IMG/VR virus record: IMGVR_UViG_3300017971_000261
Coordinates: 1-64,000 of that record
From: a virus
Strand: one strand, 5' to 3'
DNA: 64,000 bases
Part shown: one piece after another, positions 1,614-41,432 of the stretch
Numbering within the stretch: the stretch's first letter is position 1
Layout of the letters: each line of letters opens with the position of its first letter
Position numbers and translations under genes: made by a program
The notes under the pieces: model-generated
Seen by the model: only the letters and a program-made list of their open reading frames with translations
What the model was told of the DNA's origin: nothing
The model's database searches: none

Positions 1614-2042
1614 ATGATGGCAGCTCGGCTTCCCAAAGACTGGAAAGACAGAATCGAATTAGCCTATGAGAATGAGTGTGACAAGATCATCTATTATCTC
1701 ATGTTCAAGAAGACCAAGATTCCTAAGGGGTTTAACCGTGAGATCGGCGACCTAGCTGTTGAAACCAACGGCCTCCATATCGTTGAGGGTCCAAACATCG
1801 TCAAATGTATGCAGAGACGGGGCCTAGGAACTATGCTCTATGAACGCGCTATCAGGGACCTTGGTTTCATCAGTGTCGAATGGAGCGATGTGACAGTACC
1901 AGGCAAACACGCATGGAGAAGTCTCACAACACGCTGGCCATTCAGTTTAGATCTTTCCGATGGTGTGATAACGGTTTACAGGAAACGCCAGAGACGTAGC
2001 AGACGAAAGTGCGACGTGTTCGTTTTCCCGCATACGGCATAA
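1614..2042 (+). CDS. GNAT-like N-acetyltransferase
   Basis: A 142-residue protein with a motif-A-like acetyl-CoA loop, QRRGLGTMLYERAI, after a beta-strand region (GLHIVEGPNIVK), as in small phage GNAT proteins. The substrate is unknown. The ATG at 1614 is fixed by a strong TAAGGAGG ribosome site seven bases upstream; a second ATG follows directly. The last about 30 residues are Arg/Lys-rich and overlap, on the opposite strand, the 3' end of the convergent gene by about 100 bases, so the C-terminus may be a read-through extension. Family assignment rests on a single motif. Confidence 0.6.
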   Translation: MMAARLPKDWKDRIELAYENECDKIIYYLMFKKTKIPKGFNREIGDLAVETNGLHIVEGPNIVKCMQRRGLGTMLYERAIRDLGFISVEWSDVTVPGKHAWRSLTTRWPFSLDLSDGVITVYRKRQRRSRRKCDVFVFPHTA

Positions 2043-2478
2043 AGTGTCGTTCATCGTAGCAATCTTTGATGCAGTCTATTCCCATTGACGTGATTCGCAC
2101 TTTCTTGCCTGAAAGTTCCACCATTCCGTAGGATGCAAGCCGTTCTAGTGATTCACTGAGTTTAGAGAGCGACACGAAGACCTTGAGATCAACCCCGGGA
2201 TTCAACGGAACGACAAGTGAAGCACCGAATTGGAAGTAATCCTCAACGTCTATCTGAGTCCAGCATCCGACATAGGCGTACATGAGACCGAGCCATATCA
2301 GACAATGATCATCTCCGGGTTGCAGCGGGACTTCCGGTTCTTGTACTTTGGCGGAATTCGCCCAGAAGGGAGCCACATGGACGGTGATCTTTTCAGGAAA
2401 CTGCCCTGGACCGAAGTTCAACATGTCTCCGGGCTGAATCTCTTTCAGGATGTTACCACCCGAGCAGGAAGTCATCAT
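1942..2478 (-). CDS. Small winged-helix-like protein, family copy 1
   Basis: A 178-residue protein of unknown function and the most diverged of four related minus-strand genes in this window. It shares the pattern of an aromatic residue, then VGCW followed by a hydrophobic/acidic segment (VGCWTQIDVEDYF), and later a helix plus a short hairpin, LASYGMVELSGKKVRITSMG. The order helix, helix, then beta-wing resembles a winged helix-turn-helix, which is an inference. It follows the copy at 2453-2986 in the same direction and overlaps it by 26 bases, so both probably use the promoter at 3005-3033. A second ATG lies one codon after the first. Confidence 0.62.
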   Translation of the reverse strand: MMTSCSGGNILKEIQPGDMLNFGPGQFPEKITVHVAPFWANSAKVQEPEVPLQPGDDHCLIWLGLMYAYVGCWTQIDVEDYFQFGASLVVPLNPGVDLKVFVSLSKLSESLERLASYGMVELSGKKVRITSMGIDCIKDCYDERHFMPYAGKRTRRTFVCYVSGVSCKPLSHHRKDLN

Positions 2479-2986
2479 CTTCGGACCTTCTCACAAAGTC
2501 TTCCATCAATCTCTTCGCTAGATCGCTGAAGTAATACTTGCCTTCCTTGTCAATTTCAAAGAAGCCGTACCACTGAAGTTTTTTGCAGTATTGCCTGTAG
2601 TCCTTCAATTGAGGCGATGTAACCGGTATTCCAAATCGTTCATGTTCAGATTGAAGCAGTTCTTCCGGAGTCCAACTTACCCAGATGCCGGTCAAAAAAC
2701 AATGTCGGTATGCACTCAGAATGAGCGGTATCGCGCATTCCGGTGTAATCAGGTTGTCTTCGACGGACCATCCTTCCCATTTGCCCGTCTCAGAAGGCAT
2801 ATCGGACTTCAAAGCTGATGGTGGCGGCACTTCCTTTCTTCTTTCGGCAGCATCCATTCTACAGTTGATTGCTTCAGCATCGGCGAAGAGCAGCTTCAGG
2901 AAGTGTCTCTTCCAAACTGAGGTAAGAACATCAAGAACTCTTATGTCTTGTGGTTGATCCTTAAGTTCTTGCGGCCGTTTTGCCAT
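2453..2986 (-). CDS. Small winged-helix-like protein, family copy 2
   Basis: A 177-residue protein of unknown function. Its C-terminal half has the family pattern: YRHCFLTGIWVSWTPEELL, a linker, then helices and a terminal hairpin with GFFEIDKEGKYYFSDLAKRL, similar to the end of a winged helix domain. The N-terminal 70 residues are not shared with the other copies. The start ATG at 2986 has AAGGAG eight bases upstream, and a strong promoter lies 19 bases further (3005-3033). It heads a two-gene operon with the 1942-2478 gene. A regulatory role is possible but unproven. Confidence 0.75.
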   Translation of the reverse strand: MAKRPQELKDQPQDIRVLDVLTSVWKRHFLKLLFADAEAINCRMDAAERRKEVPPPSALKSDMPSETGKWEGWSVEDNLITPECAIPLILSAYRHCFLTGIWVSWTPEELLQSEHERFGIPVTSPQLKDYRQYCKKLQWYGFFEIDKEGKYYFSDLAKRLMEDFVRRSEDDDFLLGW

Positions 2987-3004
2987 GCCGGTTTCTCCTT
3001 AGAC

Positions 3005-3033
3005 AGTATACCACATCATCTGATCGCCGTCAA
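3005..3033 (-). promoter_or_regulatory. Sigma70-type promoter
   Basis: On the minus strand: TTGACG, 17-bp spacer ending in ATGTGG, then TATACT. It lies directly before the 2453-2986 gene and leaves a leader of about 14 bases holding its AAGGAG site. Confidence 0.85.
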
Positions 3034-3115
3034 ATCCAAGGAGGTTTGATGGGCCTTTGTGGTCAACTCATATAGTGTTAGTAGGACAATAGGGTTCTAC
3101 GAAGGACGGAACGAT

Positions 3116-3256
3116 ATGACAACCAAAATGAAGGCCAAATTGGCGATTCTTGGTGTTGGCGGTTTCCTATTGATCTGCCCGTACACAGTTGGCTGTGCTG
3201 CTCTTAGTGCATTGGCGGCTCTGCTACAGATCACGGGCGGTCAACTTCCGCTGTAA
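3116..3256 (+). CDS. Small membrane protein
   Basis: A 46-residue protein: a basic start (MTTKMKAK), a hydrophobic stretch of about 27 residues (LAILGVGGFLLICPYTVGC onward) and a short tail. It is probably a single membrane span or an uncleaved signal. The Cys in TVGC resembles a lipobox only weakly. The ATG at 3116 follows GAAGGACGGA; an earlier GTG at 3059 would add 19 residues without a ribosome site. It is followed by a terminator hairpin at 3278-3313, so it is a self-contained unit. Function is unknown. Confidence 0.6.
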   Translation: MTTKMKAKLAILGVGGFLLICPYTVGCAALSALAALLQITGGQLPL

Positions 3257-3277
3257 ACCAAGTCTCACGAAGCACAT

Positions 3278-3313
3278 GGCGGGGCCGGACATTCGTTCGT
3301 CCCCGCCTCTTTT
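3278..3313 (+). terminator. Rho-independent terminator
   Basis: GGCGGGG at 3278-3284 pairs with CCCCGCC at 3301-3307, followed by TCTTTT. It lies 21 bases after the stop of the small membrane protein gene. Confidence 0.75.
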
Positions 3314-3394
3314 CGTATCAACCGCAGATGCATAGGAATATACCTGTTTTTGCCGCAATGAATGATAGGCAACTGATCCTGAACGGAGACCCAG

Positions 3395-3940
3395 ATGGCA
3401 CGCGCGTCCCGCTACTCGCCACAGCGAACCGGCCAATATTTCAACTACCTTGAGAGGTTTATAGTTCGCAATAGAACTAATCGTCTAATCTCTTTGGGGC
3501 CGGATACGGACTGGGTTCTCAAACCGGGTCAACAAATAGACCTTCTGAAGCGATGTACGAGAGAACAGATCAGCCAATCCAAGCGTCTTTCTCGTCTTGC
3601 GAAACGCGGTCTCATTTCGGTGCGGTGGGTAAAGCCAAAAGGCAGGATTGACCGCGATCTAAGCTTCATCAACGATGCTACTGCTGGCCTAAGTTCCTTG
3701 CCGGACCACGACCATCCTCTGGCCGACCATGAACACAGTTGTACCGACATCGTAATGGATGATCCATACTGTTGCTTCCCGCCGTGTGATCATGAACACC
3801 CTGAACTGGCTGATGCTGACCACACCCATACTGGTTTTGCTGAAGAAGATCATGAACATAGTTGTGCTGATATTGTGATGGATGACCCATACTGTTGCAC
3901 TTTCGCGATTTATGTCTTCCGTAGAGGTAGTTACTGTTGA
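3395..3940 (+). CDS. His-rich fibre-like protein, N-terminal part
   Basis: A 181-residue reading frame whose first about 100 residues are basic (MARASRYSPQRTG onward). The second half is built of His/Asp repeats (DHDHPLADHEH, DHEHPELADADHTHTG, EEDHEH). The segment SC(T/A)DIVMDDPYCC occurs twice. Such D-H-x-H repeats are typical of phage tail-fibre and tip proteins, where His residues can bind metal. The start ATG 3395 follows GGAGAC. Shortly after the second repeat the frame ends in a non-repetitive tail (TFAIYVFRRGSYC). The overlapping frame 3882-5342 continues in fibre-like style and carries a related CFPSCTHTHEHEYP segment, so the two are probably one gene broken by a +1 shift near 3900. 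Confidence 0.7.
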   Translation: MARASRYSPQRTGQYFNYLERFIVRNRTNRLISLGPDTDWVLKPGQQIDLLKRCTREQISQSKRLSRLAKRGLISVRWVKPKGRIDRDLSFINDATAGLSSLPDHDHPLADHEHSCTDIVMDDPYCCFPPCDHEHPELADADHTHTGFAEEDHEHSCADIVMDDPYCCTFAIYVFRRGSYC

Positions 3941-5342
3941 CTTCACGGTTAATGCAGGGAATCTAGTAGGAAACAATTCGACTATAGCCTTCTATGTTTA
4001 CGAACATTCACGTATGAGTATAGGATTAGAATTGGTTCCTGGATTCTGTTTCGGTCTCCGCAACGCAACAGGAATATCACAGCTAGTAAAAGTTGACACC
4101 GGCTCCATGCTTGTCTTCTATATCGGGCTTTATGGTTTAGATGCAGAAATGGATGGCAATGCTGTCGCTGACAACTTTGTTGAAGTGCGACGTAATTCTA
4201 CGATGTACATATATGACACACCATATTTGCACGTCGCTGATTTGCTATTCGGAGCAGCCATCAGCACATTGACAGCTATCATATATCAAGATTTGTCACT
4301 AACAGATAGAACCTTGTTTTTTGTTGATGGTACGAGTTCTCTAGACTATCCCTTGCCATATTACTATACTGGTGGCGTGCCCACCGGGCCATTCTCGTGC
4401 AATTTGCAGATGAGACATTTCAAGAAGATCTTCTACGCAGACGGTGGATCTATCAGCTCAGGTTCTCTCAAGCCATACAAGTCAAATTCTGAGTCAGACA
4501 GCGTGTTTGCTCAGTCAGACAATGGAGGTTTGATAAAGCTTAATCTAGTAAATGGTGTTGGCCAGGACAACACAACGAGTTGGTACAGAATGTTACAAGC
4601 AAGCAGCGGAAGTGCTATTGCATGTGATCTGACAGAATACGTTTTCATCTTCGTTATCGCACCAGCCCCCATAGATTATTACCAAGACAATGCTGCCACT
4701 CATTCGATGATTCTTGCAGAAAATCAGTCGAAAATTGAGTTGTATTCCGAATCAACGACTAACGACAGAATGCTGGAAACAGGGAACAACAACAGCATTC
4801 ACATGGAGACATCAGAATCTTCTTCTATCGTTTGGCACTACAGTGATGAAGATTTGTACTTTGATGGTTTAGCTAACGAACCTGTCGTGGAGAATGGAGA
4901 TTCTGGCAATTTAACCGGTTTGGATTACTTCTATCTGTCAGATGGTACCAAAATGGGTCAAGGCTGCTACATTAGCCAACGACAGTCCGGCGAGAATGTA
5001 CTTGAAGACCCATATCTTGAGTATTGTTTCCCATCATGCACTCATACACATGAGCACGAATATCCTGTTGATATTAAGACCATAACATCTGATTACACGA
5101 TAGAACCAGAGTATGAGTTGATTCTATGCAACGCCTCCTCTACTGATATTACCGTGACGATGCCAGCCGTGGCATCCGAAAATGGAAGCCGCTATTACAT
5201 TAAGAGGATCGACGATTCGGCCAATTCTGTTACTGTTGATGGGCATGGATCTGAAACAATTGATGGACAATATACGCAATCTCTGTCGCACCGAGATTGT
5301 ATACTTGTGGTGTGTGATGGCACATCATGGCACATCATATAG
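3882..5342 (+). CDS. Fibre-like virion protein, C-terminal part after frameshift
   Basis: A 486-residue beta-rich protein (NSTIAFYVYEHSRM, many short Thr/Asn/Ser strands). It contains a Cys/His segment CFPSCTHTHEHEYP like those in the preceding frame, and a C-terminal domain from about TITSDYTIEPEYELILCNAS to DGTSWHII. That domain is the common end module of phage fibre proteins, with the pattern VTVDGHGSETIDG. The nominal ATG at 3882 has no ribosome site and lies inside the preceding frame, so translation probably arrives by frameshift or the break is a mutation or assembly error. It was recognised by composition and module order, not by an exact relative. Confidence 0.75.
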   Translation: MTHTVALSRFMSSVEVVTVDFTVNAGNLVGNNSTIAFYVYEHSRMSIGLELVPGFCFGLRNATGISQLVKVDTGSMLVFYIGLYGLDAEMDGNAVADNFVEVRRNSTMYIYDTPYLHVADLLFGAAISTLTAIIYQDLSLTDRTLFFVDGTSSLDYPLPYYYTGGVPTGPFSCNLQMRHFKKIFYADGGSISSGSLKPYKSNSESDSVFAQSDNGGLIKLNLVNGVGQDNTTSWYRMLQASSGSAIACDLTEYVFIFVIAPAPIDYYQDNAATHSMILAENQSKIELYSESTTNDRMLETGNNNSIHMETSESSSIVWHYSDEDLYFDGLANEPVVENGDSGNLTGLDYFYLSDGTKMGQGCYISQRQSGENVLEDPYLEYCFPSCTHTHEHEYPVDIKTITSDYTIEPEYELILCNASSTDITVTMPAVASENGSRYYIKRIDDSANSVTVDGHGSETIDGQYTQSLSHRDCILVVCDGTSWHII

Positions 5343-5353
5343 GAGGAATACTG

Positions 5354-5977
5354 ATGGCCAATCTGCCTAAATTTCCAAACGTAACTGCATTTGTGGAGGC
5401 TGCCACTGAACGTATGGAGGCCATGAGTTCACCAGATCCCGATGCGACCTATCCTGACTTCGCAGGTACTTACAACGTCCAGTTTCTTGAATTCAATTGT
5501 CGGACGAAATGGAACCTAAACGCCGAGGGTAGGCAAAGCAGTGTGGTCTCCGATCTGCCTGTGCCATCGCTTGATTTGTCCAGTGTGCCTTCTTTGTACG
5601 GTGGTGTTCTATCAAGCGCAAACGCGTATCTTTCAGATCTTTCGTCAAAGTTGCCGAACATTCTCTCCAGCTCTATTGTTATCTACCATCATGACCCGTG
5701 GCTAGTTCGTGTGGCAAATAACGGTCAAAAGAATGTTCACTTCATTGGGCTTAACGATCCGGAAGGTTTCACATTGGACCCATCTGAGGTTTCTATGGAC
5801 ATCTTAATGGAATACATAGATGGTCTGCAGAGTATTCAGGTGGTTGGTTTGTGGAATGGGGCCAACCGCATAGGTGGAAGACTTTTGATAACATCACTAT
5901 TCAGCGAGTCTAGACCACGAAGCGGTGTCGGGATCGAACTCTCGATCGCTGCCAGGTATAGGGCCATCAGATCATGA
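5354..5977 (+). CDS. Hypothetical protein following the fibre gene
   Basis: A 207-residue protein of unknown function. AGGAGGA at 5341-5347 fixes the ATG at 5354, only eleven bases after the fibre stop, so it is co-expressed and may be a fibre chaperone or accessory virion protein (context only). The sequence has an alpha-helical start, a low-complexity Ser/Leu centre (SSVPSLYGGVLSS) and a C-terminal alpha/beta part (SIQVVGLWNGANRIGGRLL). The last six bases overlap the convergent minus-strand gene. Confidence 0.72.
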   Translation: MANLPKFPNVTAFVEAATERMEAMSSPDPDATYPDFAGTYNVQFLEFNCRTKWNLNAEGRQSSVVSDLPVPSLDLSSVPSLYGGVLSSANAYLSDLSSKLPNILSSSIVIYHHDPWLVRVANNGQKNVHFIGLNDPEGFTLDPSEVSMDILMEYIDGLQSIQVVGLWNGANRIGGRLLITSLFSESRPRSGVGIELSIAARYRAIRS

Positions 5978-6364
5978 CCAGGCCTCGATGTATCGATCTT
6001 TCATCAGAGATCTAACCCGGTATCTTCCTGGCCTTCCTAAGTCAAGCATTCCAGTCGTAACAAGCCCGGCCAAGAGCTTGTGCTTCTGTGCTTTTGTTAA
6101 CCTCTTGTACCCTGGAAGGTTAATTTGATGTTCTCGAACAAATGTGTCTAGTTCTTTCAGGGTGAAAGAAATCCAGGTTCCAATATGTCGCATATATCGA
6201 ATGACAACTGATCCCACCACGACAAGATCGATGAGCGGACAATCGGCCTGTAAACACTCATCGTCATTGATAGGGAACTCTGGCAGATTGGTTCTTCCGG
6301 CCGGGAATACGGGATTCGGCCACGGCGAGGTGGCTGGCACATCTATGGGCAGAGGTGCTAGCAT
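5972..6364 (-). CDS. Small winged-helix-like protein, family copy 3
   Basis: A 130-residue protein. After a Pro-rich start (MLAPLPIDVPATSP) it shows the family core IRYMRHIGTWISFTLKELD, then a linker, two helices (KRLTKAQKHKLLAGLV) and a hairpin (TGMLDLGRPGRYRVRSL). It is short enough to be one winged-helix-like domain. The ATG at 6364 is chosen because the -10 element ends at 6371, so transcription should begin at or next to this ATG. An ATG 39 bases further upstream would lie inside the promoter. This makes it a candidate leaderless mRNA. Function is unknown; it could be a DNA-binding regulator. Confidence 0.72.
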   Translation of the reverse strand: MLAPLPIDVPATSPWPNPVFPAGRTNLPEFPINDDECLQADCPLIDLVVVGSVVIRYMRHIGTWISFTLKELDTFVREHQINLPGYKRLTKAQKHKLLAGLVTTGMLDLGRPGRYRVRSLMKDRYIEAWS

Positions 6365-6370
6365 GATGCT

Positions 6371-6399
6371 AGTATACCACAAGATTGGTCTTATGTCAA
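6371..6399 (-). promoter_or_regulatory. Sigma70-type promoter, consensus
   Basis: On the minus strand: TTGACA, 17-bp spacer ending in CTTGTGG, then TATACT. It directly abuts the start codon of the 5972-6364 gene, leaving no room for a leader. Confidence 0.88.
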
Positions 6400-6407
6400 G
6401 CAAAAAG

Positions 6408-6595
6408 AAAGCACTAGGTGCCCCATGGCTCGCCCAGTGCTTTCCGGAGGGGAAAAGGCCGGATCAACACTGTGTTACTCAGTGCCCTGACTCAAGGCGT
6501 GAGTTCGACCAACTGGTGATCCGACCTCTTCGGAATCGCCGCCAACGCACCGCGCCGTGCGTAGCGGCTGCCACGGCAAAATACTACCATTTTGC
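6408..6595. other. Structured non-coding stretch
   Basis: No gene is seen between 6400 and 6726. The stretch is dense in perfect inverted repeats: AAAGCACT 6408-6415 with AGTGCTTT 6436-6443; CGGATCA 6460-6466 with TGATCCG 6517-6523, enclosing CACTG/CAGTG (6468-6472/6480-6484); GCCGC 6538-6542 with GCGGC 6564-6568, enclosing CGCAC/GTGCG (6546-6550/6557-6561); and GCAAAAT 6576-6582 with ATTTTGC 6589-6595. Read on the minus strand, the first hairpin is followed by CTTTTTG and could be a terminator. The rest may be an RNA or the leader of the peptidase gene at 6727. I tested it as a tRNA and it does not fit. Confidence 0.55.
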
Positions 6596-6726
6596 TGTAT
6601 GCTCTAGTATGACACAAGTAGCGGGCAAGTCAAGTAACAATTCACTTTTTTTCGTTGATCTATGGCGGCATTGCCCAAAGGTCATTCCACAGTTCGGGCA
6701 AAAGACAAGATGAGAGGAGTTGCACC

Positions 6727-7578
6727 ATGCCACGAGATTTCAGATCTATTCCATTGGGTTGGGTTCCGGATCTTCCGGACGCTAGAGATTGGTCCTACAG
6801 AGACAAATATCCTCTTAAGATCATGAGACTTCCGAGTATAGTTGATTTGCGCCCTAAATTTGGGTCAGTCAATGACCAGGGTGAAATAGGATCATGTACA
6901 GCACAAGCTGCTACAGATTCAATGGAATATTGTGAGTATGTTGAATCAACAGACAGAAATGACTATAGTAGACTATTTCTTTACTACAACTCACGAGAAC
7001 ACAAAAACATTGACGAGGGAGCCTATCTGCGTGATGTTTTCAAATCCATGAATTCAACCGGTGTCAGCCTAGAAAATCTTTGGCCGTATGATACTTCGAA
7101 ATGGGCCGATAAACCTATAGAGGCTGCCTATGATGATGCCGGAAGCCATACAGCCATCGAATATTTGTCAGTTTCACAAAACGCTACGGAACTGAAATCT
7201 GTGTTAGCTGAAGGTTTCCCGATCACATTTGGCATGACTATCTACGTGTCGTTTTATGAGACAGGACAAAATGGCATGGTCCCGACACCTACTCTAGACG
7301 AGACTGCTGAAGGCGGTCATGCAATGCTCATTGTTGGTTATAACAGCACTAAACAGGTATACATCGTCAGGAATAGTTGGGGCGATGATTGGGGCGAGCA
7401 TGGATACTGCTACATACCATCTGCAATGGTAGAGAGCAGAAACTATTCAGATAATTTTTGGGTTGTAAAGCGTATTGGACAAGAGGTACCAACCGAGAGA
7501 GCTTCATCTTGTTGTGGTGTTGCTCAATCGGCACGCAGAAAAATCAAAGCAGCCTGGGACGGTCTGAAGTATGGATAG
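6727..7578 (+). CDS. Papain-family (C1A) cysteine peptidase
   Basis: A 283-residue cysteine protease. The C1A active site is complete: oxyanion Q51 and nucleophile C57 in QGEIGSCTA, H198 in EGGHAMLIVGY, N216 in VRNSWGDDWGEHGY. The start GWVPDLPDARD is typical of prokaryotic C1A enzymes; no signal peptide or long propeptide is visible. The ATG at 6727 follows GAGAGGAG; an upstream start at 6655 would only add unrelated residues. A trypsin-like protease gene follows after 22 bases. Roles could be virion protein maturation, host protein cleavage or lysis; none is shown. Confidence 0.9.
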   Translation: MPRDFRSIPLGWVPDLPDARDWSYRDKYPLKIMRLPSIVDLRPKFGSVNDQGEIGSCTAQAATDSMEYCEYVESTDRNDYSRLFLYYNSREHKNIDEGAYLRDVFKSMNSTGVSLENLWPYDTSKWADKPIEAAYDDAGSHTAIEYLSVSQNATELKSVLAEGFPITFGMTIYVSFYETGQNGMVPTPTLDETAEGGHAMLIVGYNSTKQVYIVRNSWGDDWGEHGYCYIPSAMVESRNYSDNFWVVKRIGQEVPTERASSCCGVAQSARRKIKAAWDGLKYG

Positions 7579-7600
7579 CGCCAGGCTATAATAGGTTATC

Positions 7601-8569
7601 ATGAAACGTTTTCTGAAGTACTCCGGTGTTGTTTTGATTATCGTTGCTGGTTGGGGATTAGTTGTCGCCTCGTTCTTTGGAGATCAAATCAAACAAGCAT
7701 ATGACTCCTACTTTCCGCCGCCCACATCCCAACCCGCTTATGTTGAGAAAGAGTTCTTGATTGGCGAAGGCTTGCGCCCACTTATCCCTCTAGAAGATGA
7801 GATAATCGGGCCTCCAAGCCCCGTACCAGACAAACCGTGCAGCAAACTGCGAACCCAGGTTTTCGATCCAACCGTTAAGATCATTGTGAAGAAAGATGTC
7901 GCTGTCCTTACTCTCCAGCCAACATCTCAAACCTTCTTTGATGTTTATGAGAAGATTGTTCCATCTAGTCTAGGCGGCGTGAAATATGAAGTGCATGCAT
8001 GCGGTACTGGCTTTGTTGTCAAACGAGACGAAAGAGGATCTGTTGTTGCTACAGCGGCACATGCTGTTCGCGGTGCTACTGTTGTTGGGGTAATATCCTA
8101 TGAATGGGAAGATGGCAAAACCATAGAGAAGGCACATGCAGCGTCAGTTATTACGGTATTTGCCCCTGAGGCTGGAGAAGATGCTGATCGCTCCGATGTC
8201 GCCCTGTTACGTGTGCCGAACCTGTTCACGGTCGAACCTGTGAAGTTAGCTGAATGTGGAGCAGAATGGGGAGAACCGCTTCTTGGTTCGCACTGCAGCC
8301 TGAGCAAACCACCTATTTTGACGACAGGCCTAGTTTCTCAATTGCCTGAAGACGAAGGTGGAAAAGGTTTTCTTCGATGTTCGGTTCCTATCTACCCCGG
8401 AGCAAGTGGAGGACCACTTTTTGTACGTCGAGACAGTGATTATCAGGTTGTGGGAGTTATCGCTGCAGGAGCACGATCAGACCATCCGGATGTGAACAAA
8501 TGGGCTATTTTCATGACATTTGTTGTTGGAGTCGAAAAGGTACATGAGATCATGAAAAGCTGTCCTTAA
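7601..8569 (+). CDS. Membrane-anchored trypsin-like serine peptidase
   Basis: A 322-residue protein. A basic start and one membrane segment (residues about 8-26, SGVVLIIVAGWGLVVASFF) precede a Pro-rich linker and a chymotrypsin-fold protease domain. Catalytic triad: H154 in ATAAHAV, D199 in DRSDVALLRV, S269 in YPGASGGPLF. It is probably displayed on the periplasmic side of the host membrane, as with DegS-type proteases, though no PDZ domain is seen. A TATAAT at 7587-7592 lies just before the ATG, but its -35 is poor. It forms a pair with the cysteine peptidase gene upstream. Confidence 0.88.
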   Translation: MKRFLKYSGVVLIIVAGWGLVVASFFGDQIKQAYDSYFPPPTSQPAYVEKEFLIGEGLRPLIPLEDEIIGPPSPVPDKPCSKLRTQVFDPTVKIIVKKDVAVLTLQPTSQTFFDVYEKIVPSSLGGVKYEVHACGTGFVVKRDERGSVVATAAHAVRGATVVGVISYEWEDGKTIEKAHAASVITVFAPEAGEDADRSDVALLRVPNLFTVEPVKLAECGAEWGEPLLGSHCSLSKPPILTTGLVSQLPEDEGGKGFLRCSVPIYPGASGGPLFVRRDSDYQVVGVIAAGARSDHPDVNKWAIFMTFVVGVEKVHEIMKSCP

Positions 8570-8689
8570 AGTAGTTTCTGGGCCAATTCCTTGCAAGAAT
8601 TCGTATTGTTGTTTTGGATAAATGTAGTGTCCCGTCTGTCTTTAGATAGATGGTGCCATCCTTCAACATCTTTTTCAGACCGTTCTCCA

Positions 8690-8800
8690 AAACTTATGAA
8701 AATCTGAAACCACTCAAATCCTCTGTTTGGTTCTCAGTTCATCGAGGGACACTGGGCGGCAACGCCGCCCTGCAACCTTCCCTCTCCCTGAGCGTCAATT
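8690..8800 (-). ncRNA. Candidate omega-RNA (reRNA) of TnpB
   Basis: TnpB nucleases use a guide RNA transcribed across the 3' end of their own gene. Here a perfect hairpin, GGGCGGC 8754-8760 with GCCGCCC 8764-8770, lies inside the last codons of tnpB on its 3' side, where such scaffolds are expected. The exact 3' end and the guide part (towards 8690 or lower) cannot be fixed by eye. The 8570-8733 stretch holds no gene. Confidence 0.4.
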
Positions 8801-9897
8801 CCCGTGGAACTCACGGTATGATATCGTTCTAGGTTAATAGCTGCATTCAAATCTCTGTCGATGGACAGACCGCAGCCATCACAATGATAGGTTCGATCAC
8901 TCAACTTCAGATCGTCCTTGATACATCCGCATTCAGAGCACAACTTGCTGGATGGAAACCAACGGTCAGCTAATTCTACGTTGACTCCATTCCAGTCAGC
9001 CTTGTACTCGATCTGTCTTCGAAACTCAGAGACGGATGCATCCGCAACTGCTCTTGCCAACTTGTGATTCTTCAACATTCCTGACACGGAGAGATCCTCC
9101 AAGACTACAGTCCCAGATCGTTTGGTTTTCACGACCCAAGATGTAGCCTTGTGGATTGCGTCTCTCCGAATGTTGGAGATCCTGTAGTGCAAACGAGCGA
9201 TGCGTTGTCTGGTCTTCTCCCTCCTGTTGCTGCCCTTCTTCTGCCTAGAATGACGCCTCTGAAGGCGTCCGAGTTGCCGTTTCTTCGAGATCAGGGCTTT
9301 GGGATTCTCAAAGGTCGTCCCATCAGAGCAAGTCGCCAAGGTCTTGACGCCGACATCTATGCCTACAACCTTGTCAGAGCCGTTGTGCGGCATCTCGTAC
9401 TCTTCTTGGACGCTGAGAGAGACAAACCATCGTCCTGCTCGTTCTGAGAGCGTAGCCGAGAGTACGTGAGCATCCAGAGGTAGATAGCCCGCCTCTTTCA
9501 GCCTCAACCATCCGAGCCTGGGCAGTTTGATCCTTCGACTCTCGACACAGATTGATCCTGTCAGTCGAAACGATCCGGAGCAACCCGCCATCTTCTTCTT
9601 GAACTTCGGAAACCCGACTCCATCCTTGCGTCTCTCGAAGAAGTTCTTGAATGCTTGCTGGAGATTGCGGAAACTTTCCTGGGGAGCGGCTTTTGAGACC
9701 TCGACCCACCAGGGGATGTTCTGCTTTTTCCAGGCATTCCACTCTTTGTGGAGTTGCATGGCGTTTGGTTTGGATTCTTTGTTCTTCACCCGAGCAAGAG
9801 CCCAATTCCAAGCATACCGAGCCGTGCCAGCGTGCTTGCGAAGCAGAGTACGCTGGCAGTTGTTGGGATCGAGTTGTGTTTTGTAGCTTCTTAGCAT
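8734..9897 (-). CDS. tnpB: TnpB RNA-guided nuclease (IS200/IS605 OrfB)
   Basis: 387 residues, full length for the family. It shows the RuvC-like Asp in GIDVGVKTLATC, Glu in VVLEDLSVSGM, the zinc ribbon CSECGCIKDDLKLSDRTYHC and the last Asp in DRDLNAAINL. It starts MLRSYKTQLDPNN as is normal for TnpB. The ATG at 9897 is preferred to one at 9915 because the latter lies before the stop of the upstream gene. No TnpA (Y1 transposase) is present in the window, so the element is non-autonomous or domesticated. Its C-terminal codons overlap the presumed guide RNA. Confidence 0.93.
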   Translation of the reverse strand: MLRSYKTQLDPNNCQRTLLRKHAGTARYAWNWALARVKNKESKPNAMQLHKEWNAWKKQNIPWWVEVSKAAPQESFRNLQQAFKNFFERRKDGVGFPKFKKKMAGCSGSFRLTGSICVESRRIKLPRLGWLRLKEAGYLPLDAHVLSATLSERAGRWFVSLSVQEEYEMPHNGSDKVVGIDVGVKTLATCSDGTTFENPKALISKKRQLGRLQRRHSRQKKGSNRREKTRQRIARLHYRISNIRRDAIHKATSWVVKTKRSGTVVLEDLSVSGMLKNHKLARAVADASVSEFRRQIEYKADWNGVNVELADRWFPSSKLCSECGCIKDDLKLSDRTYHCDGCGLSIDRDLNAAINLERYHTVSSTGIDAQGEGRLQGGVAAQCPSMN

Positions 9898-9901
9898 CTT
9901 T

Positions 9902-10258
9902 CTATGACAGTTCATTAATTAGTTGTCTGTATTCTTCGTAGTCTAGACACCGATCACAACCGCAGTGCCCGCAGCCGTTGTAACACCAATCATCTGGATC
10001 TGAAGGTCCGTTCTTTTTGAGTATACGGACCAGCCGATCCACCTTCGCCTTCAGTTTGCTCATGGGGTGTTCAGGACATTCCTCAATGTGTTGTTTGAGG
10101 ACATCAGCCATTGATGCAGGGACTTCGTCTTCTGGTCCATACCGATGTCCACAATACACGCAGTTGATGTACATGCCAGACTGAAGATCGGCGACCCAGA
10201 TTTTGAGCCGCTCATTCTCTTCTTGAAGATCATGAAGTCTTTCGTACATCGTTTCCAT
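9902..10258 (-). CDS. Small zinc-finger protein with coiled coil
   Basis: A 118-residue protein. An N-terminal heptad-like helix (METMYERLHDLQEENERLK) leads to a CxxC, about 27 residues, HxxxC zinc module (CVYCGHRYGPED then QHIEECPEHPM), then a helix and a Cys-rich patch (CYNGCGHCGCDRC). The CGHRYGP...HPM module is seen in many small phage proteins of unknown function. It lies in a run of minus-strand genes; the tnpB start follows its stop within a few bases, so TnpB probably inserted at its 3' end. Confidence 0.75.
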   Translation of the reverse strand: METMYERLHDLQEENERLKIWVADLQSGMYINCVYCGHRYGPEDEVPASMADVLKQHIEECPEHPMSKLKAKVDRLVRILKKNGPSDPDDWCYNGCGHCGCDRCLDYEEYRQLINELS

Positions 10259-10272
10259 TGTATCGCTCCGAT

Positions 10273-10923
10273 TCAGAATTCCGTTTCCACGGAAATTGTT
10301 TCTCTTTTGCTGTCGTAAAACATGGTCACAACATCCTTGTCTTCACCTCCGTTATGGGTGAAAAACAACTCTTCGTAGGCAGAAGATGATTTGTCGTACT
10401 GCCAGACAAATTCATTGTTTTTATCCGTACAGAAGTGCTTGTTGAGTCTCCCATTGCCGATCAAGAGACATCTCAATTCACCCTTGGAGGCATCAACCGC
10501 CAAAACTCCGAAGCTTACGTCTAAGTCCTGGTAATCCTTGTTTGGAAGCCTGCGACTGTCGTATTGGGTGTAAACCCGACCTATCTTTGGCCATTTGTCG
10601 GTGTCAATAGTCTGTTCATCAGATTTCTTCTTGGTCGTAACTGCACCAGCAATGCTAGACAGCACTTCACGTTTGGTTGGCTCGTCTAAACGAACATAGG
10701 CTCTTGGGTTGTGCCCTTGCCTAACGAACCCGTCCTCCCACAGTTTATCAAGATGATCGTCTCTCCAGATGAGCCGTAATTCACAAGACCAGTGCTTTTC
10801 TAGCCATGCTTGAATTTCGGCGTCATGGTCACCCAGAAGCGATGCAGAACAAGAGGGATTGCTCACGAACATGTCTATTGCTTCGCCGCACGCATCGCAG
10901 ACTGCTTTGTACCAGGTCTTCAT
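10273..10923 (-). CDS. Hypothetical protein with N-terminal zinc motif
   Basis: 216 residues. The N-terminus has a CDACGEAID motif and a further Cys in KHWSCELRLIW, compatible with a small zinc site. The rest is mixed alpha/beta without a motif I can name. It is co-directional with the zinc-finger gene downstream (14-base gap) and the 10939-11271 gene upstream, so it is likely one operon. Function is unknown. Confidence 0.72.
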   Translation of the reverse strand: MKTWYKAVCDACGEAIDMFVSNPSCSASLLGDHDAEIQAWLEKHWSCELRLIWRDDHLDKLWEDGFVRQGHNPRAYVRLDEPTKREVLSSIAGAVTTKKKSDEQTIDTDKWPKIGRVYTQYDSRRLPNKDYQDLDVSFGVLAVDASKGELRCLLIGNGRLNKHFCTDKNNEFVWQYDKSSSAYEELFFTHNGGEDKDVVTMFYDSKRETISVETEF

Positions 10924-10938
10924 GGCTGTTATCCCCAG

Positions 10939-11271
10939 CTATACTTTACCATCAGGATCACACTTTCCCCACGATCCCATTTCAACGAAACCAACAACCA
11001 AATCATCGCAGAAAGATCGTACGCACGCACAGTGGGCTGTGACACCGATCTGAAGATTGTCAGGACGATCAGGTATCCGCTCAGCGGTCGTTGAGGTATA
11101 GACTCTATCGACCAGGGCACTTCGCAAATGCTGCAATGCGGCTTTGGCAGATCTCAGACCGGAACGTAATTCAACGCCATTCTCTTTTTCCGCAGAAATG
11201 TGTTCGAAATGAAAGATCGCATGCTCCAGATCGTTGCGGGCGTCAATGATTACCTGTTTGTGTTTATCCAT
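10939..11271 (-). CDS. Hypothetical helical protein
   Basis: 110 residues. The first about 60 are strongly alpha-helical (DARNDLEHAIFHFEHIS, RSAKAALQHLRSALVDR). The rest has three Cys (HCACVRSFC). No known domain is recognised. It lies 12 bases after the stop of the homing endonuclease gene and 15 before the next gene, in a compact minus-strand operon. Confidence 0.62.
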   Translation of the reverse strand: MDKHKQVIIDARNDLEHAIFHFEHISAEKENGVELRSGLRSAKAALQHLRSALVDRVYTSTTAERIPDRPDNLQIGVTAHCACVRSFCDDLVVGFVEMGSWGKCDPDGKV

Positions 11272-11283
11272 TCGCAGTACTCC

Positions 11284-12264
11284 CTATAATTCACAGCGTT
11301 TTCTATTTTCTGAAAACCTCATGTCCAGATTTTCAATTGCCCTGAGGTTCTCGTCGTGCATGTTCAGCTTATAGAACATACATTTAGGTAATTCGAATTT
11401 CTCAGCGTACATTCTCCACGAAGGTATGACTATTCTGAAATCTCTGCGGCGAAACTTCACGGAATTACAGTGACCATCACGATGCTTGTTCCGGACAACA
11501 TGTAAGCTTAACGAAAATCGTTTGTTCAGGCTCTCGCAGAGGGATACCAGACCATCATAATCGAACAGTTTTGCTGAGATGCTTAGATTTGGCTTGGCAG
11601 CATGATGGCTACTCCCTCTCGTTCCGTCTTTTTTCATGCCAATGTTACCATCATCCAGATACCAAACCATCAAACCTAACAGATCAAGATCTTCTAGCAA
11701 ATCCAGAGGTACTTTCCCTTTTCTAGAATTTGTCATTTGATGGTAGAATTTCTCACGCAACAAAGAAAAAATGGGGTGAGAAACCGTCCACATTTCAGGT
11801 CTACCGCCGTCACCGTTAAAGTACTTAGGAAGGAAAACAGACAGCATCTTCATTTTCCACTTCACATAATCAGTCTGCTTACCACGATGTCCCTCATAGA
11901 ACAAATAGTTCCTTATTTTCCATCGGCGTTTATTCTTTCCAAGGCTGTTCTTTTTGATACAACCGTCTCCAAGTATGCTACCGAAGAGCACTTGTTTAGT
12001 TATATTGTCGAGATCACCTAGTGTAAGGCTCTGATCGAGCTTACACAGGTTGTTCTCATCAACAAACGAACGGCGGTATCTGCCGACTTTCGATAGATAA
12101 TCCTTATCTAGTTGTACCCCCAGCCTTTTCCGTTGACGCCTTATTGCCTCTTCGGTATGACGAGGTATTAGCTTCGACAACTCGTTTATCATCAACGTCG
12201 CTCCTTGTCGCCGAAGAATCTCGTTTTCTTCTTCTGTCCATCTTGCTTGGCTTTTTGTTTTCAT
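11284..12264 (-). CDS. Free-standing LAGLIDADG homing endonuclease
   Basis: 326 residues. Two LAGLIDADG helices are visible: LFGSILGDGCIKKN and LLGLMVWYLDDGNIG, each with its metal-binding Asp, so it is a single-chain two-motif enzyme that cuts a long asymmetric DNA site. An N-terminal Myb/SANT-like segment (RWTEEENEILRRQG) may aid DNA binding. GGAGGAG upstream of the ATG at 12264 sets the start. It is not inside an intron or intein; it overlaps the last 161 bases of the MerR-like gene, consistent with insertion into that gene's 3' part. Confidence 0.9.
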   Translation of the reverse strand: MKTKSQARWTEEENEILRRQGATLMINELSKLIPRHTEEAIRRQRKRLGVQLDKDYLSKVGRYRRSFVDENNLCKLDQSLTLGDLDNITKQVLFGSILGDGCIKKNSLGKNKRRWKIRNYLFYEGHRGKQTDYVKWKMKMLSVFLPKYFNGDGGRPEMWTVSHPIFSLLREKFYHQMTNSRKGKVPLDLLEDLDLLGLMVWYLDDGNIGMKKDGTRGSSHHAAKPNLSISAKLFDYDGLVSLCESLNKRFSLSLHVVRNKHRDGHCNSVKFRRRDFRIVIPSWRMYAEKFELPKCMFYKLNMHDENLRAIENLDMRFSENRKRCEL

Positions 12265-12631
12265 TGCTCCTCCGGACTAAATCTGCCAAGTTATAGGTAT
12301 TATACCCGCCTTCTAGCTTTCTTACCGCCAGAAGAAACTCTGACAGAGTCTCCTCAGAAGAGCATACTACTATTTTATGGAATCCTCCTTGTGTCTTTTC
12401 ACAAAAATCAAGAAAATCTTTTTCGGGTGTTACAACTCGGTTTCTCTCTGCTGGCTTGTCCGGTGGGTTCTCGTTGAGGAGTCGCTTGATGTCCGAAACC
12501 TTGTAGCGTCTGTGGTTGCCAGCAGTACGAATGGGCACAAGCACGCCCTGCTTGTCCCATATCCGAAGGGTGTCATCATGGACACCCAGCATTTCTGCTG
12601 CCTTGCTGACGCTAACTAGATTCCTGCTCAT
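12104..12631 (-). CDS. MerR-like DNA-binding protein
   Basis: 175 residues. The N-terminus is a MerR/excisionase-type helix-turn-helix: SVSKAAEMLGVHDDTLRIW, then GNHRRYKVSDIKRLL. This is close to the DNA-binding half of IS607-type resolvases, but no serine recombinase catalytic domain follows. The C-terminal about 55 residues, rich in Arg/Ser, overlap the start of the homing endonuclease gene and may be an artefact of its insertion. The start ATG at 12631 lies inside the 3' end of the 12612-12800 gene, so they are coupled. It may regulate nearby minus-strand genes. Confidence 0.8.
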   Translation of the reverse strand: MSRNLVSVSKAAEMLGVHDDTLRIWDKQGVLVPIRTAGNHRRYKVSDIKRLLNENPPDKPAERNRVVTPEKDFLDFCEKTQGGFHKIVVCSSEETLSEFLLAVRKLEGGYNTYNLADLVRRSNENKKPSKMDRRRKRDSSATRSDVDDKRVVEANTSSYRRGNKASTEKAGGTTR

Positions 12632-12800
12632 CTTCTGAAACCAATCCCTCTTCTCTGAAGATCTTCCACCAGCGATCCATGAGCTTCTGGAATTCCTTGA
12701 CGGACGGAACTCTGTCCAGTTCGAAGGGAATTGGATGCTTTTTGCCGTCATCCGTCTCGAAATGCGTTTTGGTGACTTTGGTGATCACTGGTCTAACCAT
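12612..12800 (-). CDS. Small hypothetical protein upstream of MerR-like gene
   Basis: 62 residues (MVRPVITKVTKTHFETDD onward), beta-rich N-terminus and an amphipathic C-terminal helix (FQKLMDRWWKIFREEGLV). GGGAG sits eight bases before the ATG at 12800; an earlier ATG at 12830 would begin inside the -10 region. It overlaps the MerR-like gene by 20 bases. Function is unknown. Confidence 0.6.
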   Translation of the reverse strand: MVRPVITKVTKTHFETDDGKKHPIPFELDRVPSVKEFQKLMDRWWKIFREEGLVSEDEQESS

Positions 12801-12828
12801 CCTTTTTCTCCCTGTATGTACTCCTTCC

Positions 12829-12857
12829 ATTATACGGTTTCCTGGAAGAATTCAGAA
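12829..12857 (-). promoter_or_regulatory. Possible promoter
   Basis: Minus strand: consensus TATAAT 17 bp after a poor -35, TTCTGA. It lies about 30 bases before the start of the 12612-12800 gene and would drive the MerR-endonuclease operon. Weaker than the other promoters listed. Confidence 0.45.
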
Positions 12858-12987
12858 TTTTTCAGAAGTTTTTTGGAGCAGTTAATCAACCCCATAAGGT
12901 CGAAATGCCCACACAGGTTGACATCAATATCTTCTGGCGGCGTCATGTCAAGCGAACATGTCACACGCCATTATAGCTAGTAGGTGA

Positions 12988-13440
12988 TCAACTCGTTCGC
13001 TGATTGAGTTGTTCTACATCCCAGATGAGTTGTTCTACATCCCAGATTTGGCAGAGGCATTCGATGGCGTCCGGGTCGAAACGCAATCCATCTTCGATCT
13101 CTTTGTCCGGCACAACGACCTCGAATTCCTTCAGTAACCCGAAGCCTTCGACGATGGCCTTGGCTCCCTTTTCGACGTCATCGCCTTTCACACGGCCGCT
13201 TTGGTTGCCGCCATCTTCTGACTGCTCGCCGACCTCGCGGTAATGTTTGACGATGTCGTCCGGCGTGAAGACTGCCCAGGCACCCACGTGCTTGCAATAT
13301 CGGACGATCCACGACAGGGTGAAAAGCGAATCTCCGGTCAACCCCTCGATGTCTCCGCTCTTGTTTATGACATTGGCGTATTCTGTTGCGTCTACAACAG
13401 ATACGACATCTGTTGGTTGAGAAGTGGGACTGAGTGCCAT
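12988..13440 (-). CDS. Small winged-helix-like protein, family copy 4
   Basis: 150 residues. The family core is clear: IVRYCKHVGAWAVFTPDDIVKHY, then a disordered Gly/Ser linker (GEQSEDGGNQSGR), helices (KGAKAIVEGFGLLKEFEVV) and an end that repeats IWDVEQL twice because of a 21-bp tandem duplication. AAGGAG lies before the ATG at 13440, and a promoter at 13474-13502 leaves a leader of about 27 bases. It is monocistronic, with 187 bases of apparently empty DNA before the next minus-strand gene. Confidence 0.72.
   Translation of the reverse strand: MALSPTSQPTDVVSVVDATEYANVINKSGDIEGLTGDSLFTLSWIVRYCKHVGAWAVFTPDDIVKHYREVGEQSEDGGNQSGRVKGDDVEKGAKAIVEGFGLLKEFEVVVPDKEIEDGLRFDPDAIECLCQIWDVEQLIWDVEQLNQRTS
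13006..13047. repeat. 21-bp tandem duplication
   Basis: Two exact, adjacent 21-bp copies (13006-13026 and 13027-13047). It is in frame and doubles the heptapeptide IWDVEQL at the C-terminus of the 12988-13440 protein, so it looks like a recent slippage event. Confidence 0.95.
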
Positions 13441-13473: not shown

Positions 13474-13502
13474 AGTATACCCCAAGATCGCCTAGAATGC
13501 AA
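13474..13502 (-). promoter_or_regulatory. Sigma70-type promoter
   Basis: Minus strand: TTGCAT, 17-bp spacer ending in CTTGGGG, then TATACT, upstream of the 12988-13440 gene. Confidence 0.78.
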
Positions 13503-13559: not shown

Positions 13560-14297
13560 ATGGCAAGCTGGATGCGAAAAATTGCTGATGACGAAGATCT
13601 GGTTACTGAAGAAGATCTGTGGGCGAAGATCGAGTCCATGGGACCGCGCGAGCAGTACAATATACAAAGATACCTGGATAACCCTGACGAAGACCTCGAT
13701 TTCAAGGAGTATGTTTCTGAATACGAGCGTAGAATGGAGTTTATTAAGGAACTTGCCTGGGCCGTACCTACCAAAGAAGCAGTCAAAGCAATCGCTGGGT
13801 TCGTAGGCGGCGGTAGGGCTCTTGAAATAGGTGCCGGGACGGGGTTGTGGTCCTATCTCATCCAGCAGGCGGGTGTGAATCCTGACAAGTACGCTCCGAC
13901 AGATGTTTCATCCGGGGTTGCCCCAGGTAAAAAAGGAAAGAGCTGGATCGGACGGAAGTACCACGGCATGGGGAAGATGCAAAGAAGAACCACGTTCGTT
14001 CCTGTCCAAAAGATGAGTGTCGATCAAGCGATTGAAGCTTATGGAGACTATGAGGTTCTCATATTGGTTTGGCCTCCCTATAATACACCAATGGCAGCGA
14101 ACGCACTCAAAGGTTTCCGTGGTAACCGGATCATTTACGTCGGCGAAGGCGAAGGTGGCTGTACAGCAGACGATGAGTTTCATGCCATGCTATCGAAAGA
14201 TTGGAAGGTTCACAAGAAATTCACAACCGCAGCATCCAAGAATTGGAAACAGTGGAATGCGATCCACGATTGCATTACCTTCTATGAAAGGAAGTAG
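13560..14297 (+). CDS. SAM-dependent methyltransferase-like protein
   Basis: 245 residues. The SAM-binding motif I is clear (RALEIGAGTGLWSYLI) and a motif-IV-like VWPPYNTPM follows about 80 residues later. The PPY is shared with N6-adenine and Gln methyltransferases, but the preceding residue is Trp rather than Asp/Asn/Ser, so the substrate is uncertain. The C-terminus (VGEGEGGCTADDEFHAML, then an NWKQWNAIHD strand) completes a Rossmann fold. The N-terminal about 75 residues are an acidic helical extension. ATG 13560 follows GGTGAGG. It is divergent from the 12988-13440 gene. Confidence 0.82.
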   Translation: MASWMRKIADDEDLVTEEDLWAKIESMGPREQYNIQRYLDNPDEDLDFKEYVSEYERRMEFIKELAWAVPTKEAVKAIAGFVGGGRALEIGAGTGLWSYLIQQAGVNPDKYAPTDVSSGVAPGKKGKSWIGRKYHGMGKMQRRTTFVPVQKMSVDQAIEAYGDYEVLILVWPPYNTPMAANALKGFRGNRIIYVGEGEGGCTADDEFHAMLSKDWKVHKKFTTAASKNWKQWNAIHDCITFYERK

Positions 14298-23250: not shown

Positions 23251-23279
23251 TTGACAAATCCGCTGCCCCGTTGTATACT
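23251..23279 (+). promoter_or_regulatory. Sigma70-type promoter, consensus
   Basis: TTGACA, 17-bp spacer, TATACT, about 62 bases before the nine-module zinc-finger gene. The leader between them holds short repeated TGTCCACT-like words. Confidence 0.85.
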
Positions 23280-29902: not shown

Positions 29903-29903
29903 T

Positions 29904-29932
29904 TTGCAAAACCCTGTGGCTTGTGGTATAAT
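29904..29932 (+). promoter_or_regulatory. Sigma70-type promoter
   Basis: TTGCAA, 17-bp spacer ending in CTTGTGG, then consensus TATAAT, 24 bases before the ATG of the ADP-ribosylglycohydrolase gene. Confidence 0.87.
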
Positions 29933-32205: not shown

Positions 32206-33306
32206 TTATACACCGTTTTCTTCCATGAGCTTCTTGACATCCACAAGTCCATAACCGGTTTTCTTGTCTTTTCCGGCCGAAGAAAGATCGATAGCGGTCT
32301 TTCTGAGATGCTCACGTATTTCTTCTACGGTATCGACAGGTGTAGCTCCGCCGAGTTTTCTGTGTTTCGCGATCATGAGTGCTACAACTCCGGCCACCCA
32401 CGGTGTTGCCATGCTCGTTCCGCTCATAACTCCATATCTGTTCTTTGGCAGGGTGGACAGGACTTTAACTCCTGGTGCAACGAAATCTAGATTAGGCCCA
32501 GTTTGGCTAAAACTCGCGCGACTCATATCTTTGGATACTGCACCTATGGAAATCGTTTCCTTCAGTCTGGCTGGATAATCTAGCTTGCCTATGTTCCCCG
32601 CATTGCCAGCCGCACATATGACAGGGACATTCTTGCTATATGCACGCTGGACAGCGGCACGCATGGCCTTATTGTTGTCCGGGCCACCGAGTGACATGCT
32701 GATCACATCAGCCCCCTTGGCTAAAGCGTAATCAATACCCGTCGCAATGTCTACGTATCTTCCGCAACCGTTGTTGTCTAAGACTTTGATTGTGATTATT
32801 TTCGCATCCGGAGCCACTCCGACTACGCCGATGCTATTGTTGTTTGCAGTTACGATACCTGTGCAATGTGTACCATGACCATCGCCATCATAAATTTTTG
32901 TTCTTATCTTCTTGATCTTCTTATTTACCGCACTAATCCTGCGCTGGTTTAGTCTGATGGATTTTCTCATTCTTTTCTTAGCACCTTTGCTCTTTGTTCG
33001 TCTGATTCGCTTCTTAAGTGTAGAAATTGATGATTTGTATCTTGACCTAGTCTTCAGAAGGTTTTTGATACTACTATCTCCGCTGAAATTGTGTTTTGCA
33101 CCAAATGAATTTTTGAGGTCTTTGTGTTTTGTGTCGCAACCGGTATCCAATATGGCAACAGTTACGCCCTCTCCTTTGGTTGTAGCCCAAATCTCTGGGA
33201 TGTTGAATTTCGATATATGGTATCCGAGCCTTTGGGCACTGCTAGTCGAAATATCGTGTTTCACTAGATCCGGCGGTAGTTCACATTCTGGTCTTTTTGC
33301 TGGCAT
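32206..33306 (-). CDS. Subtilisin-like serine peptidase (S8)
   Basis: 366 residues. Catalytic triad: D54 in AILDTGCD, H144 in GDGHGTHC and S298 in SGTSMATPW, with oxyanion N235 in AAGNAGN. Unusually, a strongly basic helical insert (about residues 78-138, rich in KKRIRRTKSKGAKKRMRK) separates Asp and His; it looks like a nucleic-acid-binding or coiled insert. There is no signal peptide and only a short N-terminal extension, so cytoplasmic or virion location is likely. It is the third unrelated peptidase in the window. Confidence 0.93.
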   Translation of the reverse strand: MPAKRPECELPPDLVKHDISTSSAQRLGYHISKFNIPEIWATTKGEGVTVAILDTGCDTKHKDLKNSFGAKHNFSGDSSIKNLLKTRSRYKSSISTLKKRIRRTKSKGAKKRMRKSIRLNQRRISAVNKKIKKIRTKIYDGDGHGTHCTGIVTANNNSIGVVGVAPDAKIITIKVLDNNGCGRYVDIATGIDYALAKGADVISMSLGGPDNNKAMRAAVQRAYSKNVPVICAAGNAGNIGKLDYPARLKETISIGAVSKDMSRASFSQTGPNLDFVAPGVKVLSTLPKNRYGVMSGTSMATPWVAGVVALMIAKHRKLGGATPVDTVEEIREHLRKTAIDLSSAGKDKKTGYGLVDVKKLMEENGV

Positions 33307-33860: not shown

Positions 33861-34223
33861 ATGGAAGTAAGTCGCTCCGACACACGATATGTTTGTGTGC
33901 TTCATTGCAACAGGGCCAAGAAGAATTTGGCCCACAGTCTAGCCAAAACTCCCTATCAATACGAAATCGAGCAGATTCCTGATTGCCCAACTCAGTACAG
34001 GGAAATCTTCGTTCGTGCCACCCTCGCTCGGTTAGCAGGATCGTTTCGGAACGGTAAACCGTTTGAGGTCATTCTGGATCATATAATGTCTTTGGACAAT
34101 GCTGTAATTGTCGTTTTTGGACATGAAGATCTTTTACCACTGATTCAGTCATGGGCAGAGCAAAATTCTTGTAAGTTTCGTTGCTGGAAAACTTGCCACA
34201 GCGTCGATCTTGTGGTATCCTAG
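33861..34223 (+). CDS. Hypothetical protein
   Basis: 120 residues, alpha/beta (RYVCVLHCNRAKKNLAHSL; NAVIVVFGHEDLLPLIQSW), with five Cys. The strand-helix alternation suggests a small Rossmann-like fold, unconfirmed. The ATG at 33861 is used; a TTG at 33834 would lie within the -10. The next promoter (34193) lies inside its 3' end. Confidence 0.6.
   Translation: MEVSRSDTRYVCVLHCNRAKKNLAHSLAKTPYQYEIEQIPDCPTQYREIFVRATLARLAGSFRNGKPFEVILDHIMSLDNAVIVVFGHEDLLPLIQSWAEQNSCKFRCWKTCHSVDLVVS
34193..34221 (+). promoter_or_regulatory. Sigma70-type promoter before the tRNA island
   Basis: TTGCCA, 17-bp spacer ending in CTTGTGG, then TATCCT. It is inside the end of the 33861 gene and would transcribe the small basic gene and the first tRNA. 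Confidence 0.75.
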
Positions 34224-36604: not shown

Positions 36605-36688
36605 GTCCCGGTGGTGGAACTGGCAGACACGCGGGCCCGAGGAGCCCGTGCTCGAAAGAGCGTGAGGGTTCGAATCCCTCCCGGGACA
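36605..36688 (+). tRNA. tRNA-Leu(GAG)
   Basis: Acceptor GTCCCGG/CCGGGAC, D-stem GTG/CAC, anticodon stem CGGGC/GCCCG with loop CCGAGGA (anticodon GAG), variable arm GCTC-GAAA-GAGC, T-arm GAGGG-TTCGAAT-CCCTC, discriminator A. Position 33 is C rather than the near-universal U. CCA is not encoded. Confidence 0.9.
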
Positions 36689-36714
36689 TTCATGCCGCAG
36701 TTCAAACGAATCTC

Positions 36715-36743
36715 TTGACATGAGCAGGATCATGTGGTATACT
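36715..36743 (+). promoter_or_regulatory. Sigma70-type promoter, consensus
   Basis: TTGACA, 17-bp spacer ending in CATGTGG, then TATACT. It leaves a leader of about 125 bases before the HNH gene at 36876; the leader holds a GGCAGAG/CTCTGCT inverted repeat. Confidence 0.88.
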
Positions 36744-36875
36744 AGAAGCACGGATGAAGGTTCGCGCTCTGAGGTAACGGTAGCGATATAATGAGATGAC
36801 GAATAAGGCAGAGCTGTAAAAAGAAAGGTGCCTGCCTCTGCTGTTTCGAATGTTAGTTTAACGGAGGAAACTAAC

Positions 36876-37658: not shown

Positions 37659-37662
37659 ATTA

Positions 37663-37747: not shown

Positions 37748-37768
37748 TTAAATTCAACAGGTGTAGTT

Positions 37769-41403: not shown

Positions 41404-41432
41404 TTGACTTTCGGGCCAACGTGTGGTATAGT
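41404..41432 (+). promoter_or_regulatory. Sigma70-type promoter
   Basis: TTGACT, 17-bp spacer ending in CGTGTGG, then TATAGT, 17 bases before the small membrane protein gene at 41450. Confidence 0.85.

Follow-up and report, generated by a model that had tools for sequence, protein, structure and literature searches.

Four small minus-strand genes, here termed p1 to p4, lie in a 64,000-base stretch of viral DNA (bases 1-64000 of the 80,267-base IMG/VR virus record IMGVR_UViG_3300017971_000261; hereafter, the window), and the coordinates that an initial annotation had given for their open reading frames (ORFs) are confirmed. The first of these, p1 (1942-2478; 178 amino acids), overlaps the end of p2 (2453-2986; 177 amino acids) by 26 bp (2453-2478), as well as the end of a plus-strand ORF at 1557-2042. 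An AGAAGG lies 7 nt ahead of the p1 ATG (2478), within p2, and p2 has its own Shine-Dalgarno sequence, AAGGAG, at 3000-2995; the two probably form one unit, with p2 as its first gene. The remaining genes, p3 (5972-6364; 130 amino acids) and p4 (12988-13440; 150 amino acids), stand apart; p4 codes for an acidic protein (pI 4.3), and its ATG is likewise preceded by an AAGGAG Shine-Dalgarno sequence. Judged against reference values of 0.109 in frame and -0.153 +/- 0.084 off frame, p4 has a clear codon-usage score (0.145), those of p1 (-0.017), p2 (0.012), and p3 (-0.020) are intermediate, and each gene outscores the ORFs antisense to it.

A block of the form Y-x(4)-G-x-W-x-x-(F/W)T-x-x-(E/D), which we call the N-block, is common to p2 (2633-2719, minus strand, beginning LSAYRHCFLTGIWVSWTPEEL), p3 (6125-6211, minus strand, SVVIRYMRHIGTWISFTLKEL), and p4 (13228-13314, minus strand, SWIVRYCKHVGAWAVFTPDDI) beyond what chance would give, strongly so for p3 and p4 and moderately for p2. 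In an ungapped scoring of its 29 residues against about 49,800 windows taken from the ORFs of the contig, the p3-p4 score of 55 was equalled by no other, and the p2-p4 score of 34 was the best or second best. Hidden Markov models of 25 residues of the N-block, built from three copies at a time and searched against the 1211 ORFs of the window, retrieved p4 (E=4e-6), p3 (E=0.0065), and, marginally, p2 (E=0.12), each as the top non-member. Further, hhalign with a p3+p4 profile aligned p2 in the same register (E=0.0013), and whole-protein phmmer searches linked p3 and p4 at E=0.012, with p2 appearing faintly and p1 not at all. The same leave-one-out procedure with the C-terminal block alone recovered no copy, and the similarity in that part is therefore generic. 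These results support a paralogue family comprising p2, p3, and p4. Hence, the four-copy family of the initial annotation, which had been recognized by a shared core of an aromatic residue, VG, W, and FT, stands for at least three copies by leave-one-out searches, window statistics, and hhalign; the corresponding stretch of p1 (2212-2298, minus strand, beginning IWLGLMYAYVGCWTQIDVEDY) falls in the same register, and its membership is only probable, as discussed below.

The AlphaFold model of p3, computed with the other copies as the alignment, is a clear winged helix over residues 43-120 (6005-6238, minus strand), with a block-mean predicted local distance difference test (pLDDT) of about 71-89. 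Its elements run H-E-H-(h)-H-E-E-H, that is, a helix (residues 43-61), a short strand (about 66-67), a helix (69-78), a short helix, a helix (91-104), a two-stranded hairpin (107-109 and 115-117), and a final helix; the order H1-S1-H2-H3 followed by a two-stranded wing, which characterizes the winged helix-turn-helix, is found in the predicted structure of p3, a result that concerns this copy alone. In the model, the first 41 residues come out disordered or unresolved. When this model was compared with the PDB by means of Foldseek, the top matches (best E value, 0.021) were mostly winged-helix domains of many families, including Rpa2, cullin WHB, LmrR/PadR, ORC2, Rot/MarR, RecQ, IclR, FOXN1, and MCM, and the viral fold matches include a MarR-type protein and a putative DNA-binding protein. 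The winged-helix guess of the initial annotation thus fares well for p3, and the p1 model is uninformative; the final helix-hairpin that had been attributed to all four is seen in the p3 model and can be aligned in p1 and p2, but the C-terminal half of p4 yields no confident alignment. Searches at the sequence level returned no match at or above the curated cutoffs of Pfam and NCBIfam for p1 to p4, the PadR and MarR families included, nothing better than an E value of 0.1 in PHROGs for any of the four, and nothing in the PDB with the three-copy profile (A7).

Within the first 14.5 kb, the two top-ranking promoter-like sites sit directly before p3 and p2. The site of the p2-p1 unit (3005-3033, minus strand) reads TTGACG-17-TATACT (10/12), and that of p3 (6371-6399, minus strand) reads TTGACA-17-TATACT (11/12), both with a TGTGG extended -10. 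The -10 of p3 lies just 6 nt from its ATG, and the transcript would thus have no leader or almost none. A terminator-like hairpin (6408-6424, minus strand) lies directly upstream of the p3 promoter, such sites being in no excess over shuffles on this DNA. The initial annotation had credited three of the genes with promoters of their own, and two of these are solid; the third, before p4 (13474-13502, minus strand; TTGCAT-17-TATACT, with TTGGGG before the -10), is doubtful, in that it shares the -10 of p2 and p3 (GGGGTATACT) but has a poor -35 (TTGCAT) and scores 13 in a graded scan, a level at which 1.55 sites are expected by chance. No promoter of its own precedes p1. In a general scan, promoter-like sites are not in excess (16 versus 20.2 in shuffles). 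A tighter pattern, TTGACN(15-17)TGNTATACT, occurs 3 times in the window versus 0.01 expected, its third instance, at 36715, having a tRNA-Leu gene upstream and an HNH-type gene after it and having played no part in defining the pattern. The graded scan returned 7 sites of at least 15/17 versus 0.05 expected, although 3 of the 7 helped to shape the consensus; besides the sites of p2 and p3, those of this class (TTGACA-N12-TGTGGTATAMT) are on the plus strand at 23251-23279, 29903-29932, 34193-34221, 36715-36743, and 41404-41432, and a related record (L041) holds a perfect copy. The class resembles sigma-A promoters with a TRTGn extension. Judged by their sequence, the p2 and p3 promoters are real and strong and are not specific to the family; we had considered them as a family signature and rejected this, the class being contig-wide and preceding unrelated genes as well. 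For the latter reason, they indicate possible transcription by a host-type RNA polymerase and not its timing. The early host-takeover role that the initial annotation suggested has these promoters as its basis. Sites of this class could serve to map transcription units in the phage.

The copies differ widely in charge. The net charge of the core is +7 in p3, -2 in p2, -5 in p1, and -10 in p4 (-16 for p4 as a whole), and that of the recognition helix and wing is +9, +2, +1, and -3, respectively. Given the basic core of p3 versus the acidic core of p4, it is not safe to regard all four as DNA-binding regulators; the regulator role suggested by the initial annotation is plausible for p3 but not as one DNA-binding role shared by the family. 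For p3 at least, the likeliest role is that of a DNA-binding transcription regulator.

Taking these findings together, we propose, with about even confidence, that the genes encode a lineage-specific paralogue family of small single-domain winged-helix proteins, of which p3 at least is most likely a DNA-binding regulator; the genes, the N-block, the p3 fold (as a prediction), and the p2 and p3 promoter sequences are what the analysis shows, whereas how p2 and p4 fold, whether DNA is bound, any regulation, and the timing are the parts of this proposal that we infer. In this fold, the N-block would span the first helix, the first strand, and the second helix, from which the variable linker would lead to the recognition helix and then to the hairpin wing. 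Strong host-type promoters (sigma-70/sigma-A with an extended -10) would drive p2-p1 and p3, with p4 perhaps expressed from a weaker one. The p3 protein would bind DNA and tune transcription from phage or host promoters, and the diverged copies, the acidic p4 above all, could have moved to other partners, for example, through protein contacts. Several observations weigh against this proposal. The N-block profile of the other three copies did not recover p1 among the 1211 ORFs of the window, and the alignment registers were picked by eye before the tests, so that the values flatter the case for a family somewhat. All Foldseek matches of p3 are weaker than an E value of 0.001, the p1 model is poor (mean pLDDT, 39.8, with a helix-hairpin-helix at residues 107-142 at about 60-69), libraries of characterized regulators gave no useful E value, and a core with a net charge of -10, as in p4, is not what one would expect of a winged helix that binds DNA.

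It is conceivable, albeit on balance doubtful, that there are three paralogues only and that the YVGCW stretch of an unrelated p1 arose by chance, as would fit its failure in the leave-one-out search and its unremarkable block scores with p2 and p3, which are within the noise of the ungapped scoring. However, the p3+p4 profile places p1 in the same register in hhalign (E=0.18), its block score of 20 with p4 is reached by just 5-7 of the about 49,800 windows, which puts it in the top 7, and its residues 99-139, in the half that would hold the recognition helix and wing, weakly match the PADLOC winged-helix profile WH_III-A (E=0.0019). In light of this match and of its position in tandem behind p2, we consider p1 a probable fourth, and the most diverged, member of the family.

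The charges also bear on a rather unlikely alternative, in which these winged helices act via protein contacts, for instance, as binders of host RNA polymerase or of defence systems in host takeover. The acidic core of p4 and the near-neutral cores of p1 and p2 point this way, several of the top fold matches of p3, cullin WHB among them, are themselves winged helices that bind proteins, and the strong divergence between the copies would fit moving host targets; yet the recognition helix and wing of p3 are strongly basic, neither a host target nor a link to anti-defence was found, and PADLOC gave only a generic winged-helix match. A role as accessory factors in replication, recombination, or packaging, comparable to the winged helices of Rpa2, ORC, RecQ, and MCM, instead of in transcription, strikes us as improbable: the top fold match of p3 does come from a replication protein (Rpa2), but function cannot be read from winged-helix folds, and p1 to p4 stand alone among accessory genes, with no adjoining replication gene. 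A very improbable variant is that the paralogues have split, with a basic copy binding DNA and the acidic or neutral ones antagonizing or titrating it or binding host RNA polymerase; were this true, the split would amount to a small self-contained regulatory network arising from duplication within one large phage.

As for its source, the record encodes a major capsid protein that is 53% identical to gp27 of Bacillus phage G (the gene lies outside the window, at L002:14072-14944) and has relatives at 60-83% identity at 80 or more loci in IMG/VR; its terminase is matched by PHROG terminases. These sequence matches identify the record as part of a large uncultured phage of the Bacillus phage G (Donellivirus) capsid lineage. 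A near-identity search with the first 16 kb found no match among annotated phages. Close-protein scans of IMG/VR with each of p1 to p4 and a search of bacterial and archaeal genomes with p3 returned no relative, and tblastn against annotated phages gave nothing for p1, p3, and p4; the sole match of p2 (E=0.04), in the terminase stretch of a Vibrio phage, was rejected. The profile of all four sequences offered no conserved stretch usable for scanning, and the motif, written as a degenerate DNA pattern, matched two IMG/VR contigs, in a glycosyltransferase-like and an unrelated protein, which we dismissed as chance. Profiles A2 and A11, run on two overlapping sets that together hold 57 capsid-related records besides the window's own, found no relative in these records searched whole, Bacillus phage G included, an absence that is weak evidence given that most are fragments. 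Sub-motif matches in them, at E values of 0.002 (12 residues), 0.04, and 0.3, were rejected, and the E values of the members themselves in such scans derive from models containing those members and are not evidence. Synteny via the neighbor gene at 13560-14297 revealed no family copy beside that gene in record G006.

The record holds further genes of interest. At the contig edge (129-1570, plus strand), a histidine-kinase fragment is followed by two response-regulator receiver ORFs, which is unusual for a phage. Genes for a papain-family cysteine protease and a trypsin-like serine protease adjoin (6655-7578 and 7601-8569, plus strand), and a subtilisin-like protease, judged by reading of the sequence and not by search, is encoded at 32206-33306 (minus strand). 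There is also a gene like TnpB/IS605 OrfB (8734-9915, minus strand; OrfB_IS605 plus a Cas12f1-like TNB domain), here in a phage-G-like phage, and one for a LAGLIDADG homing endonuclease (11284-12264, minus strand) that overlaps the end of a MerR-type helix-turn-helix gene (12104-12751). Three tRNA-Leu genes, with anticodons GAG, CAA, and TAA, lie about 1.1 kb apart at 36605-38919 (plus strand), with ORFs between them that we judged, by reading only, to be of the HNH type. At L002:64-2841, an intein-like stretch (CFPQTNDIQVLT...VVRFSGRCFIVGNS) apparently interrupts a structural-type protein, again by reading only.

Little seems to be recorded on transcription regulation in phage-G-like large phages, and a literature search for winged-helix paralogue families in jumbo phages found nothing. 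A duplicated winged-helix family together with a recognizable class of strong promoters would provide concrete genes and DNA sites for testing; otherwise, the family is one among many orphan small phage regulators. Its novelty is one of sequence and not of kind, such regulator families being ordinary in phages. Bacillus phage G shares the capsid lineage, yet the family profiles match nothing in it. With respect to WH_III-A, the p1 match covers the half with the recognition helix and wing and is partial, weak, and confined to one copy; in the ORF lists of the window, we noticed no CRISPR genes, although no search aimed at them was made. The winged-helix domain of archaeal Rpa2, the best fold match of p3, shows 11% identity, and p3 lacks the OB-fold domain of that protein, whose biology is different. 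The PadR/LmrR and MarR (Rot) regulators, at Foldseek ranks 3 and 9, have a fold like the p3 core, but with E values of 0.04-0.07, less than 20% identity, no dimerization helix shown in p3, and no Pfam match. A possible parallel in role is suggested by Gp5.7 of phage T7, a small winged-helix protein that can silence host-polymerase promoters on the phage genome (PMC5569994). It is a single 7-kDa protein, whereas p1 to p4 are multiple copies of 130-178 amino acids, and no sequence link between them was seen; by analogy, and not by homology, it offers a model for how p3 might act.
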